From the NCBI RefSeq assembly GCF_014696615.1, contig NZ_JACJQJ010000064.1, forward strand, positions 1-47,040: a stretch of DNA of 47,040 nt. The letters are read 5' to 3'. Each line of letters starts with the position of its first letter. Within the stretch, counting starts at the first letter, position 1. Below are positions 25,418 to 34,532 of this stretch, one piece after another. This DNA is from Nostoc linckia FACHB-104. GTDB lineage: Bacteria > Cyanobacteriota > Cyanobacteriia > Cyanobacteriales > Nostocaceae. Position numbers and translations under genes: made by a program. The notes below the pieces were generated by a model. The model made no database searches and was not told the DNA's origin. It saw only the letters and a program-made list of their open reading frames with translations.

Positions 25418-28400
25418 TCAAAGATGCCAAACTCGATAAAATTCTAAATAATCCATATTTTCTGCACAGTGCCACAGAAGTTTAAAAGAGTTGCGATATC
25501 GTTCCCATTCATCATCTAAAACTTGATAGCAGTTGGAATTTTTTAAAGCTGCAATTACTTGTGGTAACTGTTCATAGAGAACTATTTCTTTTAAGTTATC
25601 GGCTGCACGTTTATGTAGTGATATGCTTTCGGTTGATTCCATTAATTGTAATAAAGTGGTAAGTGCAATTGGATTACCTGGATTGAGTTGCGCTAATTTA
25701 TAAGCCCGTCTTCTTTGGGTATCTTCATCTTCAGAGGCGGAGATACCGCGAATTAGTTCGGCAATTTTGGAGTTGATAGAGAAATAATTTGATGCGGCTG
25801 ATTTTTGTTTTCTCTTGTTTCTTCTATGCTGATGAAATGTTGGAGTTGGAGAAACTGTAACGAATGTAGGTAACTCATCACCTTGAAGTGTGGCTAAATT
25901 TTCTAAAGCTTGTCGGCTTTGAGATGAATCAATTGCAGATGTAGCAATTTCTTGAAGTGTAGAAATGGCAATGGAATTGTGAGGGTCGATTTTACCTAAA
26001 CTATAAGCAGCTTTGCGACGAATAGATTCATTTTTGCTAGATGCGATAATTTCTACTAAAGCGGCGATCGCATTTTGATTACCAGCGTTGACTCTGGCTA
26101 AACTATAGGCAAGTTGCCAGCGAACTGAATCATAACGCATAGTTTTGACGAGTTCTTCTAATTTAGCGATCGCAATTTGGTTACCTGGATCGAAAATTTT
26201 ACCCAAGCTGTAAGCCGCATTCCAAATTACGAAATCATTTTGGCTAGAAGAGATGTACTTTTCTAAAGCTGCGATCGCTTTTGGGCGATCGGTTTTTAAT
26301 AATGCCACCCGCGCACATTCTACAATTGGGGCTGGATATCTCCACGGCTTTTCGTCTTGGAAGTCGCCATAACCAAAACGCCACGTTACCAACTGCTGCA
26401 CAATTTCATCAGCTTTTTGACAATCTGCAAATTCAGCAATTCCTTGGGCGGCGACAAAATAAGCTTGATAGCCATAGTAGCCACCGCAGTTATCATTGAA
26501 TTCAATTAATGCTTGGATAAATTCTTCTTTGTGTGTCTGCGGAATATCATCTCTACCCAGCCATAGCAAAATGACTTCGCGCCACTGGGGTTCAAAGATG
26601 CGGTAAGAGGGAGATGAGGGGGATGAGGGAGGTGAGGGGGATGAGGGGGAAGGGTTGAGATTTAATGTGTGATTTAGGAAAAAATGCCAATCAGTAACGG
26701 CTTGGGCGGCAAAATATTCTTGAAAGGTGGGATGGTAAAAAGCATAAACTTTTTCGCCCTGAGTTTCGGAGATACCTACCTGATTTAGCCAACCTAACTG
26801 TAATGCTAATTGAAATAAACCATCATCAGACGCGCCGAGAACTTGGGAAACAAAGCGATGTCTGAGGCGAAACTTGGTTTTTTCTTGGGAAATAGCTAAT
26901 AATGCTAACTCTCCCAAGGCGCGATTTAACTGCTGTCGCTGGGTGAAAGTTGTGGGAAAACGATCCTGTTTCCATTCGTAGATTGATTCTACAAACTGTT
27001 CGTACAACATCGCTTTAGTTGTTGGTAATTTTCCCTGAGCTAATCCCCAAGTACGACATAATAAAGCTAACCTGAGGGGATTTTTTACCGCATCCTTTAA
27101 GCGTCGCCGTTCTGGTTGATTTAACTCTGCTTGTAAACTCTCACCACAAGCGGGATTATCTTGAAACCAATGCTGGATAAATTCTCCTACTTGGTTGGAT
27201 GCAGATTTGGAACCGAAGGAAAATTCTGTGCCATAGCTAAAATTTAAGTTGCGGTAGACTTTAAAAACTTGCAGTGCATTTTTACCGCCATCCCAAACAT
27301 TCAGCCGACAAGTCAAAATTATCCTGGCATCTGCAACCCAGCCTGTCAAAAAACTCGCAATTTTCGTTAAAGCTTGGCTAGAGTCCAAAGCCATTTCATC
27401 CACTGCATCTAAAAGTAACCAAACTCGCCCTTGGTTAAACTGTTCGCAGAATGCTTCTTCAACTTCCTCCGAGACGCGTAATTTACGAAGTGCAGTAGGT
27501 AGCCAATCTTGAATTAAGTATTGTTCTAAAGTTTTCCCTTGCAAATCTGCTAAAGAAACCCAGACAGGTAAATCTTCAGTATTATCTAAAATCCATGCGG
27601 CAATTTTTTGTAACAATGTAGTTTTTCCCGCCCCTGGTTCGCCTAAAATGGCGATGCGCTGGGTATCTTGCGCCCCTAATAATTGTTGAATAAATTCATC
27701 AGGGTTAAAAGTCTGAGTCATTTCCGAATCTTCTGGTTCATATAACCGCGAACCATCTTGCGGCGTGACATCCCCACCTTGACGCAGACGTTGTTTGCGT
27801 TCCACCAAACCTAGGGGAACATAAACCTGATTTAATTCAAAACTCACACCATCAGCACTTGTGAGGGGATTGGTAGTCAACCGTTGGTGATTTTGCGCCA
27901 TTAAAGCATCACGACAAAGTTGCTTCCAGTCGGGAGAAAAAGCAGGGGAGCAGGGAGCAGGGAGCAGAGGGGAAGGGCTTTCTCCTTTTCTCTCTTCTCT
28001 TGCTACTTGCTTCGACTTCTCTGGGCGGTGGGTTTCCCAGTGGATATCAAATTTTTGTAAATTGGCGGCTATGTCTTGGCGATCGCACCATAAATTGAGG
28101 GTAAAGTGCCAAGTTTCTGAACCGCTGCGAGATGGGCGATTATCTTCGAGAATTTCGAGGAAATCTGCAAACCGTTTTAAGGCTTCTTTGATGTGTTCGG
28201 CGTTTAATTGTGCTTCACCTGCTGCCAAACTTGTTAATGTTTGTAAAAATCTCACTTTTGTTCTGACAACTAGGCGATTTTCAGATATCCAGCGAGTTTG
28301 GATTTGGGGACGCAAAGCATCCAAACTGGCTTCATCACTACAGTTTAGGGCATCGTTAGCATAAGCTAATAATACTTCTAACAAGCGGCGCGATCGCTTT

Positions 28401-28432
28401 TTTGCTTCTGGGCCATAACTCGCTCTTGCCAT
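25418..28432 (-). CDS. NACHT-domain NTPase with C-terminal HEAT-like repeats (NLR-like)
   Basis: A STAND-class signal-transduction ATPase, about 1,004 residues from the ATG at 28432 ('MARASYGPEAKKRSRRLLE'). The open frame extends to 28618, but that part translates a G/A-rich repeat, so I exclude it. The N-terminal domain (about 1-135, 'NRLVVRTKVRFLQ...HFTLNLWCDRQDIAANLQKFD') is one I associate with cyanobacterial NACHT proteins; its function is unknown. The NACHT has Walker A 'GEPGAGKTT' (264-272), Walker B 'VWLLLDAVDEM' and sensor 'ARIILTCRLNVW', then a winged-helix region ending 'YAFYHPTFQEYFAAQAV'. The C-terminal part has at least four HEAT/PBS-type repeats ('RRKAAYSLGKIDPHNSIAISTL'). Two low-complexity inserts are repeat-derived. 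Bacterial NACHT proteins include antiphage sensors; a regulatory role is also possible. Confidence 0.88.
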   Translation of the reverse strand: MARASYGPEAKKRSRRLLEVLLAYANDALNCSDEASLDALRPQIQTRWISENRLVVRTKVRFLQTLTSLAAGEAQLNAEHIKEALKRFADFLEILEDNRPSRSGSETWHFTLNLWCDRQDIAANLQKFDIHWETHRPEKSKQVAREERKGESPSPLLPAPCSPAFSPDWKQLCRDALMAQNHQRLTTNPLTSADGVSFELNQVYVPLGLVERKQRLRQGGDVTPQDGSRLYEPEDSEMTQTFNPDEFIQQLLGAQDTQRIAILGEPGAGKTTLLQKIAAWILDNTEDLPVWVSLADLQGKTLEQYLIQDWLPTALRKLRVSEEVEEAFCEQFNQGRVWLLLDAVDEMALDSSQALTKIASFLTGWVADARIILTCRLNVWDGGKNALQVFKVYRNLNFSYGTEFSFGSKSASNQVGEFIQHWFQDNPACGESLQAELNQPERRRLKDAVKNPLRLALLCRTWGLAQGKLPTTKAMLYEQFVESIYEWKQDRFPTTFTQRQQLNRALGELALLAISQEKTKFRLRHRFVSQVLGASDDGLFQLALQLGWLNQVGISETQGEKVYAFYHPTFQEYFAAQAVTDWHFFLNHTLNLNPSPSSPSPPSSPSSPSYRIFEPQWREVILLWLGRDDIPQTHKEEFIQALIEFNDNCGGYYGYQAYFVAAQGIAEFADCQKADEIVQQLVTWRFGYGDFQDEKPWRYPAPIVECARVALLKTDRPKAIAALEKYISSSQNDFVIWNAAYSLGKIFDPGNQIAIAKLEELVKTMRYDSVRWQLAYSLARVNAGNQNAIAALVEIIASSKNESIRRKAAYSLGKIDPHNSIAISTLQEIATSAIDSSQSRQALENLATLQGDELPTFVTVSPTPTFHQHRRNKRKQKSAASNYFSINSKIAELIRGISASEDEDTQRRRAYKLAQLNPGNPIALTTLLQLMESTESISLHKRAADNLKEIVLYEQLPQVIAALKNSNCYQVLDDEWERYRNSFKLLWHCAENMDYLEFYRVWHL

Positions 28433-28509
28433 CGCTGTAGTTGTAGAACTGGACAAAGTTCGGGAATTATCCAAGTTTAACAACTTCCGCACTGGGTATT
28501 TAGTTAGTA

Positions 28510-28642
28510 GGGGGAAGGGGGAAAGGGGAAAGGGGAAAGGGGAAGTGGGAAACGGTAAAGGGGAAAGGGGGAAAAGAAAAGCAAATTCCCTACCCAATCC
28601 CCAATCCCCAGTCCCCAATCCCCAATCCCCAATCCCTAATCC
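28510..28642. repeat. G/A-rich low-complexity repeats (GGGGAAA and CCCCAAT units)
   Basis: Tandem GGGGAAAG-type units (28510-28574) followed by CCCCAAT/CCCCAGT heptamers (28597-28642). The latter end exactly at the stop codon of phoD. Similar CCCCAAT arrays recur at about 34585-34640. Confidence 0.8.
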
Positions 28643-30247: not shown

Positions 30248-30717
30248 AATTTTTAGCAGTGGTATTTCAGAAGAAGAATTGCTGATTGCTGAGTGATAGT
30301 TACAGTTTTATTAGCTTTGTGTAATAAATACACAAAGCTTTTCGATAGCAAATATGCAAAACTTGCTAATAGCAGAAATGTTGAAAATATTACCAATTAC
30401 CAAGTTGGAATTTATCACGATTAATGGAATTTATTAGTAAATATTCAGTTATAAAAAAGTTAAGAAAAGCTAGCATTGCAATTTTGATGTCATACCCTAA
30501 GTAAGTCGGCAAGCAAAATTCTATATGTATGAAGAAATATAAATTCTCATCTCCAAAGTTCGGGGATTCCCCTAGCTTCTTAACTTCCCCTAGCAGACTC
30601 AGCCTTGTTCTATAAGCTTTTCCAGGTTTTGAGGCTATATTGGCTTCGGGGAAATTCCCTGGCATATTCTTAAGACATAGATGAAGCACCTAAAAATTTA
30701 GATATCAATCAGCCAAT
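30248..30717. other. divergent intergenic region, phoD to 30718 gene
   Basis: About 470 bp, A/T-rich. A perfect inverted repeat lies at 30313-30339 (listed separately). A reverse-strand frame at 30390-30689 exists but shows no family features and I do not call it. Promoters of phoD and of the forward gene must lie here. Confidence 0.4.
30313..30339. promoter_or_regulatory. perfect 11-bp dyad upstream of phoD
   Basis: AGCTTTGTGTA and TACACAAAGCT are perfect inverted copies around ATAAA. It lies 65-92 bp before the phoD start codon. It could be an operator, a 5' leader hairpin of phoD, or (forward strand, with TTTT after it) a terminator-like element. Confidence 0.4.
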
Positions 30718-31122
30718 ATGTTAAAACTTACCTACACAGAAGACAGCTTTAGCTTAGAACATCTGGAAACCTCGTTGCAAACTTGGGTAAATCAAAGAGT
30801 TACACTATCTTTGCATTCTGCAAATAATATTTACATTGAATCTAGTCAAGCAGCATTTTTACTTCCTTGTGATTTATCTAATTTGGAAGAGTTAGAGAAA
30901 TTAAATCAAGCAAATATTTTAGAAATTTGTCCTTGTGATGCTGATGCAGTAGAAGTTGTTCTTAAAGGTACTTGGATAGCATCGAATCAAGAGAGTGAAG
31001 TAGGTATTTTTGTAACTTCACTGGACAAATCTGCGGCATTATTACTTGAACAACTAGCGCAAACTAAACAATTTATGCCATTGTTAACTGTTGAAGATTC
31101 ACAGTTAACAGTCAACAGTTAA
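30718..31122 (+). CDS. conserved cyanobacterial hypothetical protein (alr0857-like)
   Basis: A 134-residue acidic soluble protein beginning 'MLKLTYTEDSFSLEHLETSLQTWVNQRV'. From memory this start and the 'SAAFLLPCDL'-like and 'EVVLKGTWIAS..ESEVGIFVTSL' segments fit a cyanobacteria-specific family named after Anabaena alr0857; function unknown. There is no catalytic motif or membrane segment. The last eight residues ('DSQLTVNS') and the stop are encoded by a heptamer repeat array, so the natural C-terminus has been replaced or extended. It precedes the Y-RNA-like elements on the same strand and may share a promoter with them. Confidence 0.65.
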   Translation: MLKLTYTEDSFSLEHLETSLQTWVNQRVTLSLHSANNIYIESSQAAFLLPCDLSNLEELEKLNQANILEICPCDADAVEVVLKGTWIASNQESEVGIFVTSLDKSAALLLEQLAQTKQFMPLLTVEDSQLTVNS

Positions 31123-31138
31123 CAGTCAACAGTCAACA
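31095..31138 (+). repeat. STRR heptamer array (CAGTTAA/CAGTCAA)
   Basis: Six tandem heptamers overlapping the last codons and stop of the preceding gene and ending 7 bp before the first structured RNA element. Confidence 0.85.
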
Positions 31139-31145
31139 TTCAGTC

Positions 31146-31232
31146 TTGCTGTTCGCGGGACTTTGGTGCGACTTCCGAACCCGAACTTTGAATTCGTCCT
31201 AGTCAGTCGCGCCGCCTTTCCCCGGACAGCAA
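31146..31232 (+). ncRNA. Y-RNA-like structured element, copy A
   Basis: An 87-nt element with nested pairings. Closing stem: TTGCTGTTCG (31146-31155) with CGGACAGCAA (31223-31232), one G-U; then a bulged C (31156) and GGG (31157-31159) with CCC (31220-31222). Second stem: GGTGCGACT (31165-31173) with AGTCGCGCC (31205-31213), nine pairs. Third: CGAA/TTCG around a 7-nt loop CTTTGAA (31182-31196). Copy B preserves all three with compensatory changes, which supports a functional RNA. The single-bulged-C closing stem and location beside a Ro60-like gene match the general plan of Y RNAs, but sequence identity to known Y RNAs is not visible, and no own promoter or T-run terminator is seen. Confidence 0.55.
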
Positions 31233-31351
31233 CCCATAATAGGCAAGGGGGCAGGGGGCAGGGAGCAGGGGGGAGAAGAAAAGCTTATACCCATTTTATT
31301 AATTTCAAAAGTTCCAAAATATTAAATTAGAATTATCTAATTTTTCAGTCT

Positions 31352-31436
31352 TGCTGTTCGCGGGACTTGAGTATGACTTCCGTTCCAACCTGTTAAGTTG
31401 ATTGACCTAGTCATGCTAATCTTTCCCCGAACAGCA
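31352..31436 (+). ncRNA. Y-RNA-like structured element, copy B
   Basis: An 85-nt element. TGCTGTTCG (31352-31360) pairs perfectly with CGAACAGCA (31428-31436); bulged C (31361); GGG (31362-31364) with CCC (31425-31427). Second stem GTATGACT (31371-31378) with AGTCATGC (31409-31416). Third stem CAAC/GTTG around CTGTTAA (31386-31400). Against copy A, G-C became A-U and C-G became U-A in stem two, and the third stem is wholly different in sequence but still paired. It ends 42 bp before the Ro60-like start codon, so it may be processed from, or act in, that mRNA leader. Confidence 0.55.
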
Positions 31437-31478
31437 CTCTAATAATTCGGAATTCTTAGTTTGTAATTCGTAATTTAT

Positions 31479-32906
31479 ATGATTAGTAATAATAACCGCG
31501 TTGAGCAGGTGGCGCGGGAAGATTTGGTGATGTTTATTAATGCTTGTCTGGCTTGTACGGGACAGCGGGAATTTTATGATGATGCTTATGGACAGCGAGT
31601 ATCAATTGATTTTTTACATGATTATATTTTGGGGAATTATCGCTTACTTTATGCTCGTTCTTTGGCGGCGGGGATTAATCATTTTAATCAGGCGCAGATT
31701 ATTTTGAAATTGCTGGCGACGGGAAAGGATACGTTAGCAGAACATAAGGAAGAGGAGGGTGCGTTAATTGCTCATGCGCTTAATTCTTTACCACCGCAAC
31801 GGGCTTGGGGGGTTTTACAGCAGTTGCGTCAACGGCGAATCAACAACCGTCGGAGTCGCGCGATCGCACGGGATTATTTACAACAGCGACGCGATTTAAG
31901 TTTCCATGCTGTGAAGTATCGTCCCAAGGTAAGAGCGATCGCATCTCACGCACATTTGAAACTTCAAGGTGAATTGGGTACTTTTCTGTTCCGCAATTGG
32001 AAGCAAAAGGTGTATGAAACTGAGTTATTCGAGAAGTTTCGTCAAGCACATTTTAGCGAACAGGCTATTTATGATTTACCTTTCACTGTGGCGGAGGGAT
32101 TAGCAGCAAAGCACAAAGTCAAGCGCGATGTGTTTTTAACCCGCATCCAACAGCAAATGACTGTGGGTGAAAAGTTGCGCTTCCAAGGTGCGGCGGAACG
32201 TACTGAAAAGGTGGAAATTGACTTAGATTTGGGAAAGTTACCCTTAACTAAGTTGGCGTTGTATATTTTATCTTTGCCTTTGGAAAGGAGAAAAGAGCAA
32301 AGGGAGATTTTTCACCAAGCTTTAGAGCGATCAGCTCGTTCAGTGCTAAAAAAAGCACCGTTGAAACTGGGAAAAGTGGCAGCAGTTTTAGATTGTAGCT
32401 ACTCTAGCTCAGGTTCTAGCGAAAAGCGTCGCCGTCCTTTGGGTGTAGCTGTTGCTACTCACTATTTATTGCAAGCCGCATCACAGGAATATCGTGCTTT
32501 TTGGACGGTACCCGTAGAAGATGCTTTGCAAGTCCGCCCACATGGACAAACTGACTTAGCTACACCTTTATTAGCCGCCTTGGGTTCTGGTGCAGACTTA
32601 GTTGTGATTGTCTCCGATGGTTGCGATAACTATCCCCCCAATGGTGCGGCGGAAGTGTTGCGGATATTTAGAGCTAAGTTAGATCCAAAAAGAAGAACTT
32701 CCATCATTCATTGCAATCCGGTGTTTAATTCTGAGGATTTCTCCTTGCGAAATCTCAGCGCCAGCGTCCCGACAGTGGGATTGCGCGATGCAGAAGACTT
32801 ACCAACCATGCTGGGATTTGCACGTTTCGCTGATGGTTCTGCACCGTTGTCAGAATTAGAAGCATATTTGGCTGAACGAGTGCAACAAATGTTGAGTGAA
32901 ATATGA
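31479..32906 (+). CDS. Ro60-like (TROVE-type) protein: helical repeats plus vWA domain
   Basis: A 475-residue protein with the two-part design of Ro60/Rsr. Residues about 10-270 are all-helical, with TROVE-like segments such as 'NSLPPQRAWGVLQQLRQRRI', 'RRSRAIARDYLQQRRDLSFHAVKYRPKVR' and basic, RNA-binding-looking surface runs. Residues about 298-475 form a von Willebrand A domain with a complete MIDAS: D305-x-S-x-S in 'AVLDCSYSS', T358 in 'HGQTDLATPL' and D380 in 'VVIVSDGCDN'. Ro60 proteins bind Y RNAs and misfolded RNAs and can hand them to exonucleases. It follows two Y-RNA-like elements and overlaps the next frame by 4 bp (ATGA). Assignment to TROVE proper rests on architecture and recalled motifs; a MoxR-type vWA protein is the alternative. 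Confidence 0.7.
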   Translation: MISNNNRVEQVAREDLVMFINACLACTGQREFYDDAYGQRVSIDFLHDYILGNYRLLYARSLAAGINHFNQAQIILKLLATGKDTLAEHKEEEGALIAHALNSLPPQRAWGVLQQLRQRRINNRRSRAIARDYLQQRRDLSFHAVKYRPKVRAIASHAHLKLQGELGTFLFRNWKQKVYETELFEKFRQAHFSEQAIYDLPFTVAEGLAAKHKVKRDVFLTRIQQQMTVGEKLRFQGAAERTEKVEIDLDLGKLPLTKLALYILSLPLERRKEQREIFHQALERSARSVLKKAPLKLGKVAAVLDCSYSSSGSSEKRRRPLGVAVATHYLLQAASQEYRAFWTVPVEDALQVRPHGQTDLATPLLAALGSGADLVVIVSDGCDNYPPNGAAEVLRIFRAKLDPKRRTSIIHCNPVFNSEDFSLRNLSASVPTVGLRDAEDLPTMLGFARFADGSAPLSELEAYLAERVQQMLSEI

Positions 32907-33346
32907 AGCTTGCAGCTTTGAAGGCGGAAGGTGAGCTTTTGAAGGTGGAAGTTGCAGGTTTTTTCTCGGAAGTTGCACCTTTGAGGCTGAAGGTTGCGGC
33001 TTTGAAGGTGGAAGTTGAGGCTTTGAGCTTGAACATTGCGGCTTTGATGTCGGAAGTTGCGGCTTTGAGCTTGAACATTGCACCTTTGAGGCTGAAAGTT
33101 GCGGCTTTGATGTCGGAAGTTGCGGTTTTTCGCTTGAACGTTGCACCTTTTTTGTCTCACGCAGAGGCGCAGAGGCGCAAAGAAGAAGAGAAGAAGAGCT
33201 ATTTTGTCTCTCGTAGGGTGTGTTGTCGCGTAGCGCAACGCACCACCAACCATCTCAAGTACTTTACCTTACACCATCACACCAGTTTTCCCCATTCCCC
33301 ATTCTCCATTCCCCTTTCCCCCTTCCCCATTCCCCCTTCCCCTTAA
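32903..33346 (+). CDS. heptad-repeat ORF translationally coupled to the Ro60-like gene
   Basis: The ATG overlaps the upstream stop as ATGA. After two codons, twelve 21-nt units (32909-33160) encode twelve heptads of the form [V/I]-A-[A/P]-[L/F]-x-x-[E/N/K], for example 'VAALKVE', 'VEALSLN', 'IAALMSE'. With V/I at a and L at d this is a near-ideal coiled-coil or zipper pattern. The tail (from about residue 87) translates dispersed gap repeats (ACGCAGAGGCGCAGAGG, a palindrome at 33212-33243, CCCATTCC runs) and is probably not selected. Because the array is a minisatellite and is also open in reverse frames, it may be non-coding; the perfect start overlap and frame retention argue otherwise. Confidence 0.4.
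   Translation: MKLAALKAEGELLKVEVAGFFSEVAPLRLKVAALKVEVEALSLNIAALMSEVAALSLNIAPLRLKVAALMSEVAVFRLNVAPFLSHAEAQRRKEEEKKSYFVSRRVCCRVAQRTTNHLKYFTLHHHTSFPHSPFSIPLSPFPIPPSP
32909..33160 (+). repeat. 21-bp minisatellite, 12 units
   Basis: Twelve consecutive 21-bp units of the form GTTGCGGCTTTGAxGxTGGAA. Codons 1-4 of each unit are nearly constant, while codons 5-7 vary among a few alternatives (AAG/AGG/AGC/ATG, GTG/CTG/TTG/TCG, GAA/AAG/AAC). No unit has an indel. Confidence 0.9.
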
Positions 33347-33350
33347 TCTT

Positions 33351-34532
33351 ATGGCTACCAAACAGCAATTATTAACAGATATATCTTTAAAAGGATTGGA
33401 AATTGCACCATCCCAGATACGCGGTGCTGTGCGGATTGTCCCGCTATTGCGTCGTCGGGTGCGCGGAGACTTTCGTTTAGTGCGGCGTGATTATCACGAA
33501 GACATAGCGGTGGTTTCGTTAGAAGCAAGAATTACAGAACCTGGGATGCAATACTACTCCTATGTACCTCACGGCTTGGTACTTTCTTGGAGTGATGACG
33601 GTAGCCCCATCGCGGCTTTTGGGGGACAGATGCTCAAGCCGGATGGAAAGCGTTTAGACTGTGGTTGTGCAAGTGTGCGGTTGATGCATCGCATGGCGAA
33701 GCGGGAAGCTAAGAATCAACTGCGATTGTTACCTCTGCATTTGGCTATGGAAGGTTTTCTCTCGCTGTTTTTTTCAGGGCCAGATATTGCTTGGAGTGAG
33801 TATTCTAAGTATTCTCTATCTCATGGACTGGGTTCACGCTATGAAATGTCCTTCAGTGGACGTTATATAGCGGGGTTGGAAGATGCTTTGCGGGTATTTG
33901 AGATTCATCCCCGCCAAGTTGGGGTGTTGGTATTTGTAGCTGAGACTTTAGCATCGGCTTTTGTCGTTCCTACCCCAGAAGACTATCGGGCTTTGCACAC
34001 CAGTTTACTAGAAGACTTCTACGGCGAGTTAATTTATGAATACAGCATGATGTTTGACAAGCCATTTCCGATGGATTTGTCTGTAGATGATGCTAAAATT
34101 CACAGCTTGGCAGATTTGAGAAATGCGATCGCGCAAATGCGATCCGATTGGGCTGCTTTTCAAGGCTTCATGGCGGAAGGATTACTGCAACGTCCGCTAA
34201 ATTCCCAGCGAGTCTATACAATGGGGCCGTTTGTACTGCAACGTTTTATCACTAGTCTGCTTCCCAAGGAAGAAAACCATATTGGCGAAGCAATTATTCG
34301 TGAAGATGGCGAACTAGAATATCTCAAAACTTACCGCCTTTCCGCCGCCCAAACCCGCCGTGTCTATTTACTCAGTCAATTACACTCATACAACTGGAAC
34401 ATCGACGCAACCGCTAAAGCCCTAGGTAACTCCCGTGAAGAATTCGTCACCCGTTTAGAAACAGCCGGCTTTGGCTACTTACTCAATCAACAAGTCCGAG
34501 ACGCAGCTAGAAAAAAGCGGAAGAAATCATAA
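33351..34532 (+). CDS. ARPP-2-type protein, partner of the Ro60-like gene
   Basis: A 393-residue soluble protein. Its N-terminal half ('LKGLEIAPSQIRGAVRIVPL', 'RRDYHEDIAVVSLEARI', 'YYSYVPHGLVLSWSDDGSPIAAFG') matches, from memory, the ARPP-2 family ('ARG and rhodanese-phosphatase-superfamily-associated protein'), described by genome context in predicted RNA-repair and conflict systems with Ro/TROVE proteins. A middle segment has 'LDCGCASVRLMHRMAKREAKNQLRLLPLHLAMEGFLSLFF'. The C-terminus ('VYLLSQLHSYNWNIDATAKALGNSREEFVTRLETAGFGYLL') looks like a Fis-type helix-turn-helix, followed by a basic tail. No catalytic motif is obvious. It is in the same orientation and only 4 bp after the heptad-repeat frame, so an operon is likely. 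Confidence 0.65.
   Translation: MATKQQLLTDISLKGLEIAPSQIRGAVRIVPLLRRRVRGDFRLVRRDYHEDIAVVSLEARITEPGMQYYSYVPHGLVLSWSDDGSPIAAFGGQMLKPDGKRLDCGCASVRLMHRMAKREAKNQLRLLPLHLAMEGFLSLFFSGPDIAWSEYSKYSLSHGLGSRYEMSFSGRYIAGLEDALRVFEIHPRQVGVLVFVAETLASAFVVPTPEDYRALHTSLLEDFYGELIYEYSMMFDKPFPMDLSVDDAKIHSLADLRNAIAQMRSDWAAFQGFMAEGLLQRPLNSQRVYTMGPFVLQRFITSLLPKEENHIGEAIIREDGELEYLKTYRLSAAQTRRVYLLSQLHSYNWNIDATAKALGNSREEFVTRLETAGFGYLLNQQVRDAARKKRKKS

Follow-up and report, generated by a model that had tools for sequence, protein, structure and literature searches.

A structured RNA that accompanies a Ro-like protein gene in Nostoc linckia and other bacteria: probable partner of a divergent Ro-type protein

The window analysed here is a stretch of 47,040 nucleotides (nt) from Nostoc linckia FACHB-104 (contig NZ_JACJQJ010000064.1). 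It carries two tandem RNA elements directly upstream of a gene for a protein of 475 amino acids (aa) whose predicted structure resembles that of the ring protein Ro60. To our knowledge, work on the Ro particles of bacteria covers few species, and their recognition depends on a single protein model (TROVE) and a single RNA model (YrlA). The features of the locus are the following.

31147 to 31232, forward strand: RNA element copy A, with a closing stem carrying a bulged C, a second stem, and a 4-bp hairpin with the loop CUUUGAA
31338 to 31343, forward strand: TAATTT, a putative −10-like hexamer that begins 14 nt upstream of copy B, weak alone and recognised from a family-wide signal
31352 to 31437, forward strand: RNA element copy B, structured as copy A, with the loop CUGUUAA
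31479 to 32906, forward strand: the 475-aa Ro60-like protein, with a helical N-terminal part and a C-terminal vWA domain that has the residues of a metal ion-dependent adhesion site (MIDAS)
33351 to 34532, forward strand: an ARPP-2 protein (PF22549; Pfam, 2e-115), the conserved downstream partner

Two RNA elements precede the Ro-like gene

An earlier, sequence-only reading had described two elements with shared ends, a bulged C, three helices and compensatory changes, and all of these can be read directly from the DNA. In stem two, a G-C and a C-G pair of copy A become A-U and U-A in copy B, with pairing kept. In stem three, CGAA/TTCG becomes CAAC/GTTG, and in the closing stem the copies differ by U-G versus U-A. 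When folded with flanks, copies A and B reach z scores of −5.4 and −5.8, and each beats all 200 dinucleotide shuffles; under a tighter cut, the values are −2.8 (2 of 200 shuffles equally good) and −5.4, respectively.

A cmsearch with our covariance model R1, whose seed includes both copies, scores copy A at 98.1 bits (E = 2e-20) and copy B at 80.8 bits (E = 3.4e-16). Across the genome of origin, the model reports only these two copies, both at the window locus. Searching Rfam with the whole window at gathering scores gave no match. At E up to 10 around the elements (30700 to 31600), six sub-threshold matches appeared, none spanning an element; one of them, on the other strand, overlaps copy A in its first 8 nt.

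The G-rich spacer between the two copies (31241 to 31277) is a short dispersed repeat. Of the 44 matches that the query gave in the same genome, 43 are located elsewhere, and these fall on the spacer sequence.

The three-helix structure is conserved under selection

Members of the RNA family are about 86 nt long and have three helices: a closing stem of 13 bp, in which a single pyrimidine is bulged, a stem of 9 bp, and a hairpin of 4 bp. Two alignments were built. The seed alignment joins the two window copies with 35 elements hand-picked for diversity among regular-expression matches; L038, a member of the first alignment, was left out of it for its odd apical loop. The larger alignment comprises 114 matches (E up to 1e-9), drawn from 100 chosen loci; 104 of the matches are distinct, and some of the loci represent one genome fetched twice.

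With no structure supplied, RNAalifold recovers the three helices from the 37 seed copies as 26 pairs, 18 of which show double changes that keep the pairing. Double-change cells number 173, compared with 45.6 ± 6.7 in shuffles and 26–37 when the structure is slid by 1–3 columns. The covariation score is 0.562 against 0.231 ± 0.012 in shuffles, a value reached by none of 500. The 104 distinct copies, aligned by fitting to the covariance model and hence leaning to the structure, give 467 double-change cells versus 124 ± 13 and a score of 0.547 versus 0.234. The covariation that the sequence-only reading expected in wider alignments is thus strong, and the RNA structure is shown to be conserved under selection. 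Four of five further copies, folded as single sequences, have z scores between −3.9 and −6.0.

The outer eight pairs of the closing stem vary as pairs, and helix 1 is paired in 97.4% of cells among the 104 copies. The bulged base is C in 94 of these and U in the other 10. In the consensus, a G and the bulge are followed by GGGACU, facing UCCCC, with 4 bp after the bulge. The blocks GGGACU, UUCCG (in the context AYUUCCG) and UCCCC are nearly invariant in the same copies; the inner closing-stem pairs, being invariant, give no covariation evidence themselves.

The RNA occurs together with the Ro-like gene in four phyla

A protein scan with one genome per species returned 89 relatives of the 475-aa protein, and the best 80 of the 89 were fetched as loci. 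By our reading of the record titles, from which all phylum and order names of these loci are taken, they come from Cyanobacteria, Myxococcota, Armatimonadota and one actinobacterium. One relative with the record title Comamonas sits within the Myxococcota set of a later search. A second actinobacterium with the protein was found among 296 genomes of that phylum, and it has the RNA upstream (65.8 bits).

In 77 of the 80 loci, the Ro-like gene is preceded by the element on the same strand. As for the three misses, the flank of L050 has only 39 nt, and the L063 sequence stops 293 nt 5' of the gene; in G124, which we take to be the L063 genome, the RNA lies near the end of another contig, consistent with a contig break. 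The third, L030, is the same contig as C72 of genome G004, which carries its RNA on a different contig.

Of 388 genomes searched in the order of the window, 46 have the protein and 47 the RNA, and every one of the 46 protein carriers has the RNA. The one RNA-only genome (G213) holds a weak copy (41 bits) that is followed 23 nt later by a partial match to ARPP-2; the 10 kb read there contain no Ro-like match. This locus (L132:4928-5442) is apparently decaying, as if the protein gene had been lost. Among 193 Myxococcota genomes, protein and RNA occur in the same 48. Over the 581 genomes of both groups, the RNA is thus found in 94 of 94 protein carriers, while the covariance-model search, run with stricter filters that lose some weak matches, does not find it in 341 of 342 protein-less genomes of the order and in 145 of 145 in Myxococcota. 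The hypergeometric log10 P is −58 for the order and −46 for Myxococcota, values that ignore shared ancestry and rest on an RNA model built partly from genomes counted here.

A less circular test comes from a class of Armatimonadota, since there the new genomes were found by the RNA alone. Among its 19 genomes, the RNA model picked out four, two of them new, and in both of these the protein gene lies directly downstream (64% and 49% identity). We also compared RNA and protein distances over 51 hand-listed loci, each containing a single RNA copy and matching the gene in full. The Mantel correlation is 0.77, reached in 0 of 2000 permutations, as shared inheritance would give. Taken together, the fetched loci, the 94 genomes and the two new Armatimonadota bear out the forecast that matches to a covariance model would lie beside Ro-like genes. 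The system had been called cyanobacterial; it does occur in Cyanobacteria, and it is also found in Myxococcota, Armatimonadota and Actinomycetota.

Comparison with Ro60, YrlA and Y RNA

In its predicted structure, the 475-aa protein has a helical ring followed by a vWA domain, and its best Foldseek matches in the PDB are Ro60/Rsr. Ro60 is an RNA-quality-control protein, and the predicted shape of the 475-aa protein is similar to it. The MIDAS pattern (DxSxS...T...D) is kept across the family, with D305, S307, S309 and D380 in 26 of 26 members and T358 in 25 of 26. Against Pfam and NCBIfam, the window's protein has no family match. We notice that 18 of the 26 members align into residues 155–215 of canonical Ro60, an eye-picked region that holds the conserved basic/His stretch KY..R..H..K. 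At most 6 of 300 shuffles do as well in only 4 of the 26 members, the window protein not being one of them, and 4 of 90 control tiles are also low; this motif link to TROVE is only suggestive.

The same genome also carries a canonical Ro60 gene.

L118:309-2331 (contig C149): canonical Ro60 gene, matching both TROVE and vWA_Ro60 by Pfam

Just 5' of it stand tandem YrlA-like, tRNA-like RNAs (RF00005 at 51.9 bits; RF02553 at 29.4 and 26.6 bits, under the gathering score of 69). Because this genome has a canonical Ro60 too, the new pair runs parallel to Ro60 in it and is not a replacement. A canonical TROVE protein is found in 20 of 58 relatives. The two systems share the predicted ring-plus-vWA fold, the MIDAS residues and, in this genome, small RNAs in tandem upstream; they differ in that the new protein lacks a TROVE or vWA_Ro60 match and has ARPP-2 as partner gene.

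The new RNA also differs from YrlA, having no YrlA match, no tRNA match and no tRNA-like module. RF02553 gave no match at E up to 10 in 30700 to 31600, at E up to 1 in seven element-bearing loci, and at E up to 0.5 in L048 and L080. No tRNA-like module was found by ARAGORN in the window or by RF00005 at the element-bearing loci searched. In the controls, YrlA matches were detected in 3 of 7 canonical TROVE loci, all under the gathering score, and RF00005 scored 36.8–51.9 bits in 6 of 7 such loci of this and related genomes. Identity of the RNA with YrlA or a tRNA is rejected on these searches.

According to two published accounts (PMC4726728, PMC11277228), the lower stem of vertebrate Y RNA has a single bulged cytidine as its ninth nucleotide. 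Y RNA levels fall when the Ro60 orthologue is deleted (PMC4726728). The new RNA likewise has a single bulged cytidine in its lower stem, at model position 10. In the broad sense of the term, it has two features of a Y RNA, namely a gene beside a Ro-type gene and a closing stem with a single bulged base. The proposal that the elements are Y RNAs is partly supported, by these features and the linkage; where searched, the RNA has no match to YrlA or any other Rfam family and no tRNA-like module.

A sister family of Ro-like proteins is encoded at three loci.

L178:2497-5985, L179:3579-5914 and L176:3842-6414: Ro-like protein with ARPP-1, no Pfam match for the Ro-like protein

The L176 protein, from Alkaliphilus, is assigned here by its ARPP-1 neighbour only. 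Its tblastn match to the 475-aa protein has an E value of 8e-13. The sister family resembles ours in homology to the 475-aa protein (hhalign probability 99.2%) and in an ARPP-family gene directly downstream. It is unlike ours in that this RNA was not found beside the three genes, and the L178 gene (genome G048) adjoins an RNA ligase gene. These proteins may have an RNA of their own.

Interpretation and alternative explanations

Upstream of the family, TANNNT begins 11–20 nt 5' of the first helix in 72 of 98 distinct stretches, compared with 23.5 ± 3.7 in single-base shuffles and 11–22 in three windows further upstream; no such hexamer was noted upstream of copy A. At the other end, pyrimidines fill five or more of the six positions that follow the last helix in 61 of 98 distinct stretches, against 5 of 98 at a control position, which makes this run a candidate terminator or processing site. 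Both signals, which are read from sequence and are no proof, fit a transcript that starts at the first helix.

We consider it likely that the elements encode a small structured RNA of about 86 nt, which has its own promoter and acts in trans as the dedicated partner of the 475-aa protein. Both the binding of RNA to protein and the discrete transcript are inferred here. The two probably form an RNA-protein particle outside the family libraries searched. That the RNA works like a Y RNA is well supported, and the pair is best read as a divergent class of Ro-type particle. Literature searches listed no title or abstract on the protein family or the RNA; an earlier mention in Chen et al. 2014 or Burroughs and Aravind 2016 is possible.

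A number of observations weigh against this reading. The Foldseek TM-scores are moderate (0.33–0.49, root-mean-square deviation 8.5–12.4). TROVE (PF05731) and vWA_Ro60 (PF25045) match 0 of 26 members at E up to 10, and hhalign against nine canonical Ro60 proteins, from shallow profiles, gives a probability of 3%. What had been named a Ro60-like neighbour is Ro60-like in predicted fold and falls outside the TROVE sequence definition. Since TROVE does not recognise the protein by sequence and YrlA does not recognise the RNA, we file the pair under neither name. The vertebrate Ro60 site, GGUCCGA with a three-nucleotide bulge opposite, is not present in the RNA consensus, which has the nearly invariant GGGACU, AYUUCCG and UCCCC blocks instead. 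As a single sequence, the actinobacterial copy folds no more stably than its shuffles (z −0.7), and for L076 and L099 the predicted fold differs from the consensus in the apical part. In genome G081, an extra distant copy has a broken pair and the protein gene is interrupted. The intact RNAs of G004 and G006, discussed below, lie 123 nt 5' of the possible start of an unrelated same-strand frame, GTPase-like as judged by eye from its sequence, and could have turned into a leader of that frame. The last point is the spacing at the gene itself: in 47 of 77 loci, 14–60 nt separate the end of the element from the protein match.

That spacing, together with the upstream, same-strand position in 77 of 80 loci, is what would be expected if the elements were a 5' leader, through which the Ro-like protein, by binding a structure in its own message, would control its translation or the stability of the transcript; read-through into the gene may occur. 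A cis-acting leader would always lie upstream, within the transcript of the gene that it regulates, and G004, G006, L040, L042, L052, G081 and G824 depart from this. In G004 and G006, the protein gene and ARPP-2 share one contig and the RNA stands on another, intact (102.5 and 95.6 bits) and adjoining an alr0857-type gene with a PhoD-type gene nearby. Even the nearer contig end lies about 98 kb away from the G004 protein gene, so the separation in this genome is not a contig break, and the off-contig RNAs argue against a simple mRNA leader. In L040, L042 and L052, the RNA is 521–577 nt upstream, and an alr0857-type gene lies in between. Two or three RNA copies are present in 11 of 77 loci, all in genera that we place in Nostocales, and G824 has an extra copy 13 kb away. 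We regard the leader, one of two alternatives raised by the sequence-only reading, as weakened by these observations and unlikely. The other, a dispersed palindrome or mobile repeat present here by chance, draws on the tandem arrangement and on the repeated spacer. It is rejected by the two-copy result in the genome of origin, where the spacer alone is dispersed; the tie of the RNA to one gene across four phyla and its absence from nearly all protein-less genomes under the stricter filters make it extremely improbable.

A third alternative concerns the apical hairpin. Its loop has 7 nt in 98 of 104 distinct copies and 6, 8 or 13 nt in the remaining six. Among the 98, position 1 is a pyrimidine in 95, position 2 is U in 97, position 4 is U in 89, position 6 is A or G in 88 and position 7 is A in 78, giving the common pattern Y U N U N A A. 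By our reading of these sequences, the loop resembles an anticodon loop, and the variable positions 3 and 5 would be those that we take to be anticodon-loop positions 34 and 36. The pattern is no independent statistic, since it is shared by descent. The RNA might then serve chiefly as a decoy or sensor. Its hairpin would mimic the anticodon arm of a tRNA, and tRNA enzymes or anticodon nucleases would bind, modify or cleave it, while the role of the Ro-like protein would be limited to stabilising the RNA or reporting on it. A precedent is the tRNA-like domain known in YrlA, which PMC7790460 presents as a suggested anticodon-nuclease inhibitor. The 7-nt loop fits such a decoy; the stem of 4 bp, not 5, the six loops of other lengths, and the lack of a tRNA match by ARAGORN in the window or by Rfam at the searched loci do not, and we think this alternative quite unlikely.

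A model for the Ro-like particle

Under the preferred reading of a trans-acting RNA partner, we propose the following working model. The RNA would be transcribed from a promoter directly 5' of the first helix and would act in trans with the Ro-like ring protein. By analogy with the bulged lower stem of Y RNA, which serves Ro60, the putative protein-binding site would comprise the bulged pyrimidine, then GGGACU/UCCC, then AYUUCCG, and it would sit on the ring exterior. The variable upper stem and the anticodon-like 7-nt loop may be offered to a second partner or may gate access to the ring. The ring cavity would take the single-stranded ends of faulty RNAs. We speculate that two further parts, the MIDAS site of the vWA domain and ARPP-2 (which may be a DNA-binding regulator), would connect the particle with its effectors or with its own expression.

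A bolder version, which we hold to be rather unlikely, sees an undescribed class of Ro ribonucleoproteins (RNPs) in at least four phyla, parallel to Ro60-YrlA within one cell. Here, the RNA would display an anticodon-arm look-alike, with U at the middle anticodon position and variable outer positions. The particle would watch for tRNA anticodon damage or modification and would trigger a response through ARPP-2 and its Fis-like DNA-binding end.

A divergent branch missed by the TROVE and YrlA models would widen the known spread of Ro RNPs. Its scale is indicated by the constant RNA partner in 46 of 388 genomes of the cyanobacterial order and 48 of 193 Myxococcota genomes, and it would offer tractable hosts in Myxococcus and Nostoc. 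Comparison would show which Y RNA features recur, such as the bulged closing stem, and which do not, such as the tRNA-like module. The conserved ARPP-2 neighbour would be a first lead to an effector or regulator.

ARPP-2 and other neighbours

ARPP-2 lies 3' of the Ro-like gene, on the same strand and within about 2 kb, in 71 of 80 loci; four of the nine loci without it end at a contig end. Of 58 relatives, 16 have the Ro-like protein, and these same 16 are the ones with strong ARPP-2 matches, in G008 on another contig; one extra weak match in G048 adjoins a sister-family gene. In 5 of 26 members, ARPP-2 has a weak match to HTH_8 (Fis-type; best 0.0013), and the window's copy has none; by our reading, a helix-turn-helix may be present at the C-terminal end. 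The predicted model of ARPP-2 is poor (pLDDT 63.3), and it has no significant match in the PDB (best E = 0.086). For a related ARPP domain, an action on ribose moieties is proposed in PMC9503650.

Over 31 hand-picked diverse loci, the Ro-like gene is present in 31, ARPP-2 in 29, a kinase-like family (assigned by eye) in 7 and alr0857 in 5. The remaining clusters listed are frames antisense to or overlapping the Ro-like or ARPP-2 genes.

A phage origin is rejected, as no relative of the Ro-like protein was found in viral contigs and a DNA pattern search of viral sequences gave 10 matches, none scoring as the RNA. PHROGs returned one match at E 0.4, which is not useful. Membership in a defence system is likewise rejected, PADLOC having no model for the Ro-like protein or ARPP-2.

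Upstream in the window, on the reverse strand, 25418 to 28618 encode a NACHT protein with EAD4 and HEAT domains, and 12 of the 80 fetched loci have similar genes upstream, likewise on the opposite strand. A frame of short repeated units of the type LKVAALKVEV, seen in the translation, stands between the Ro-like gene and ARPP-2 at 32903 to 33150.
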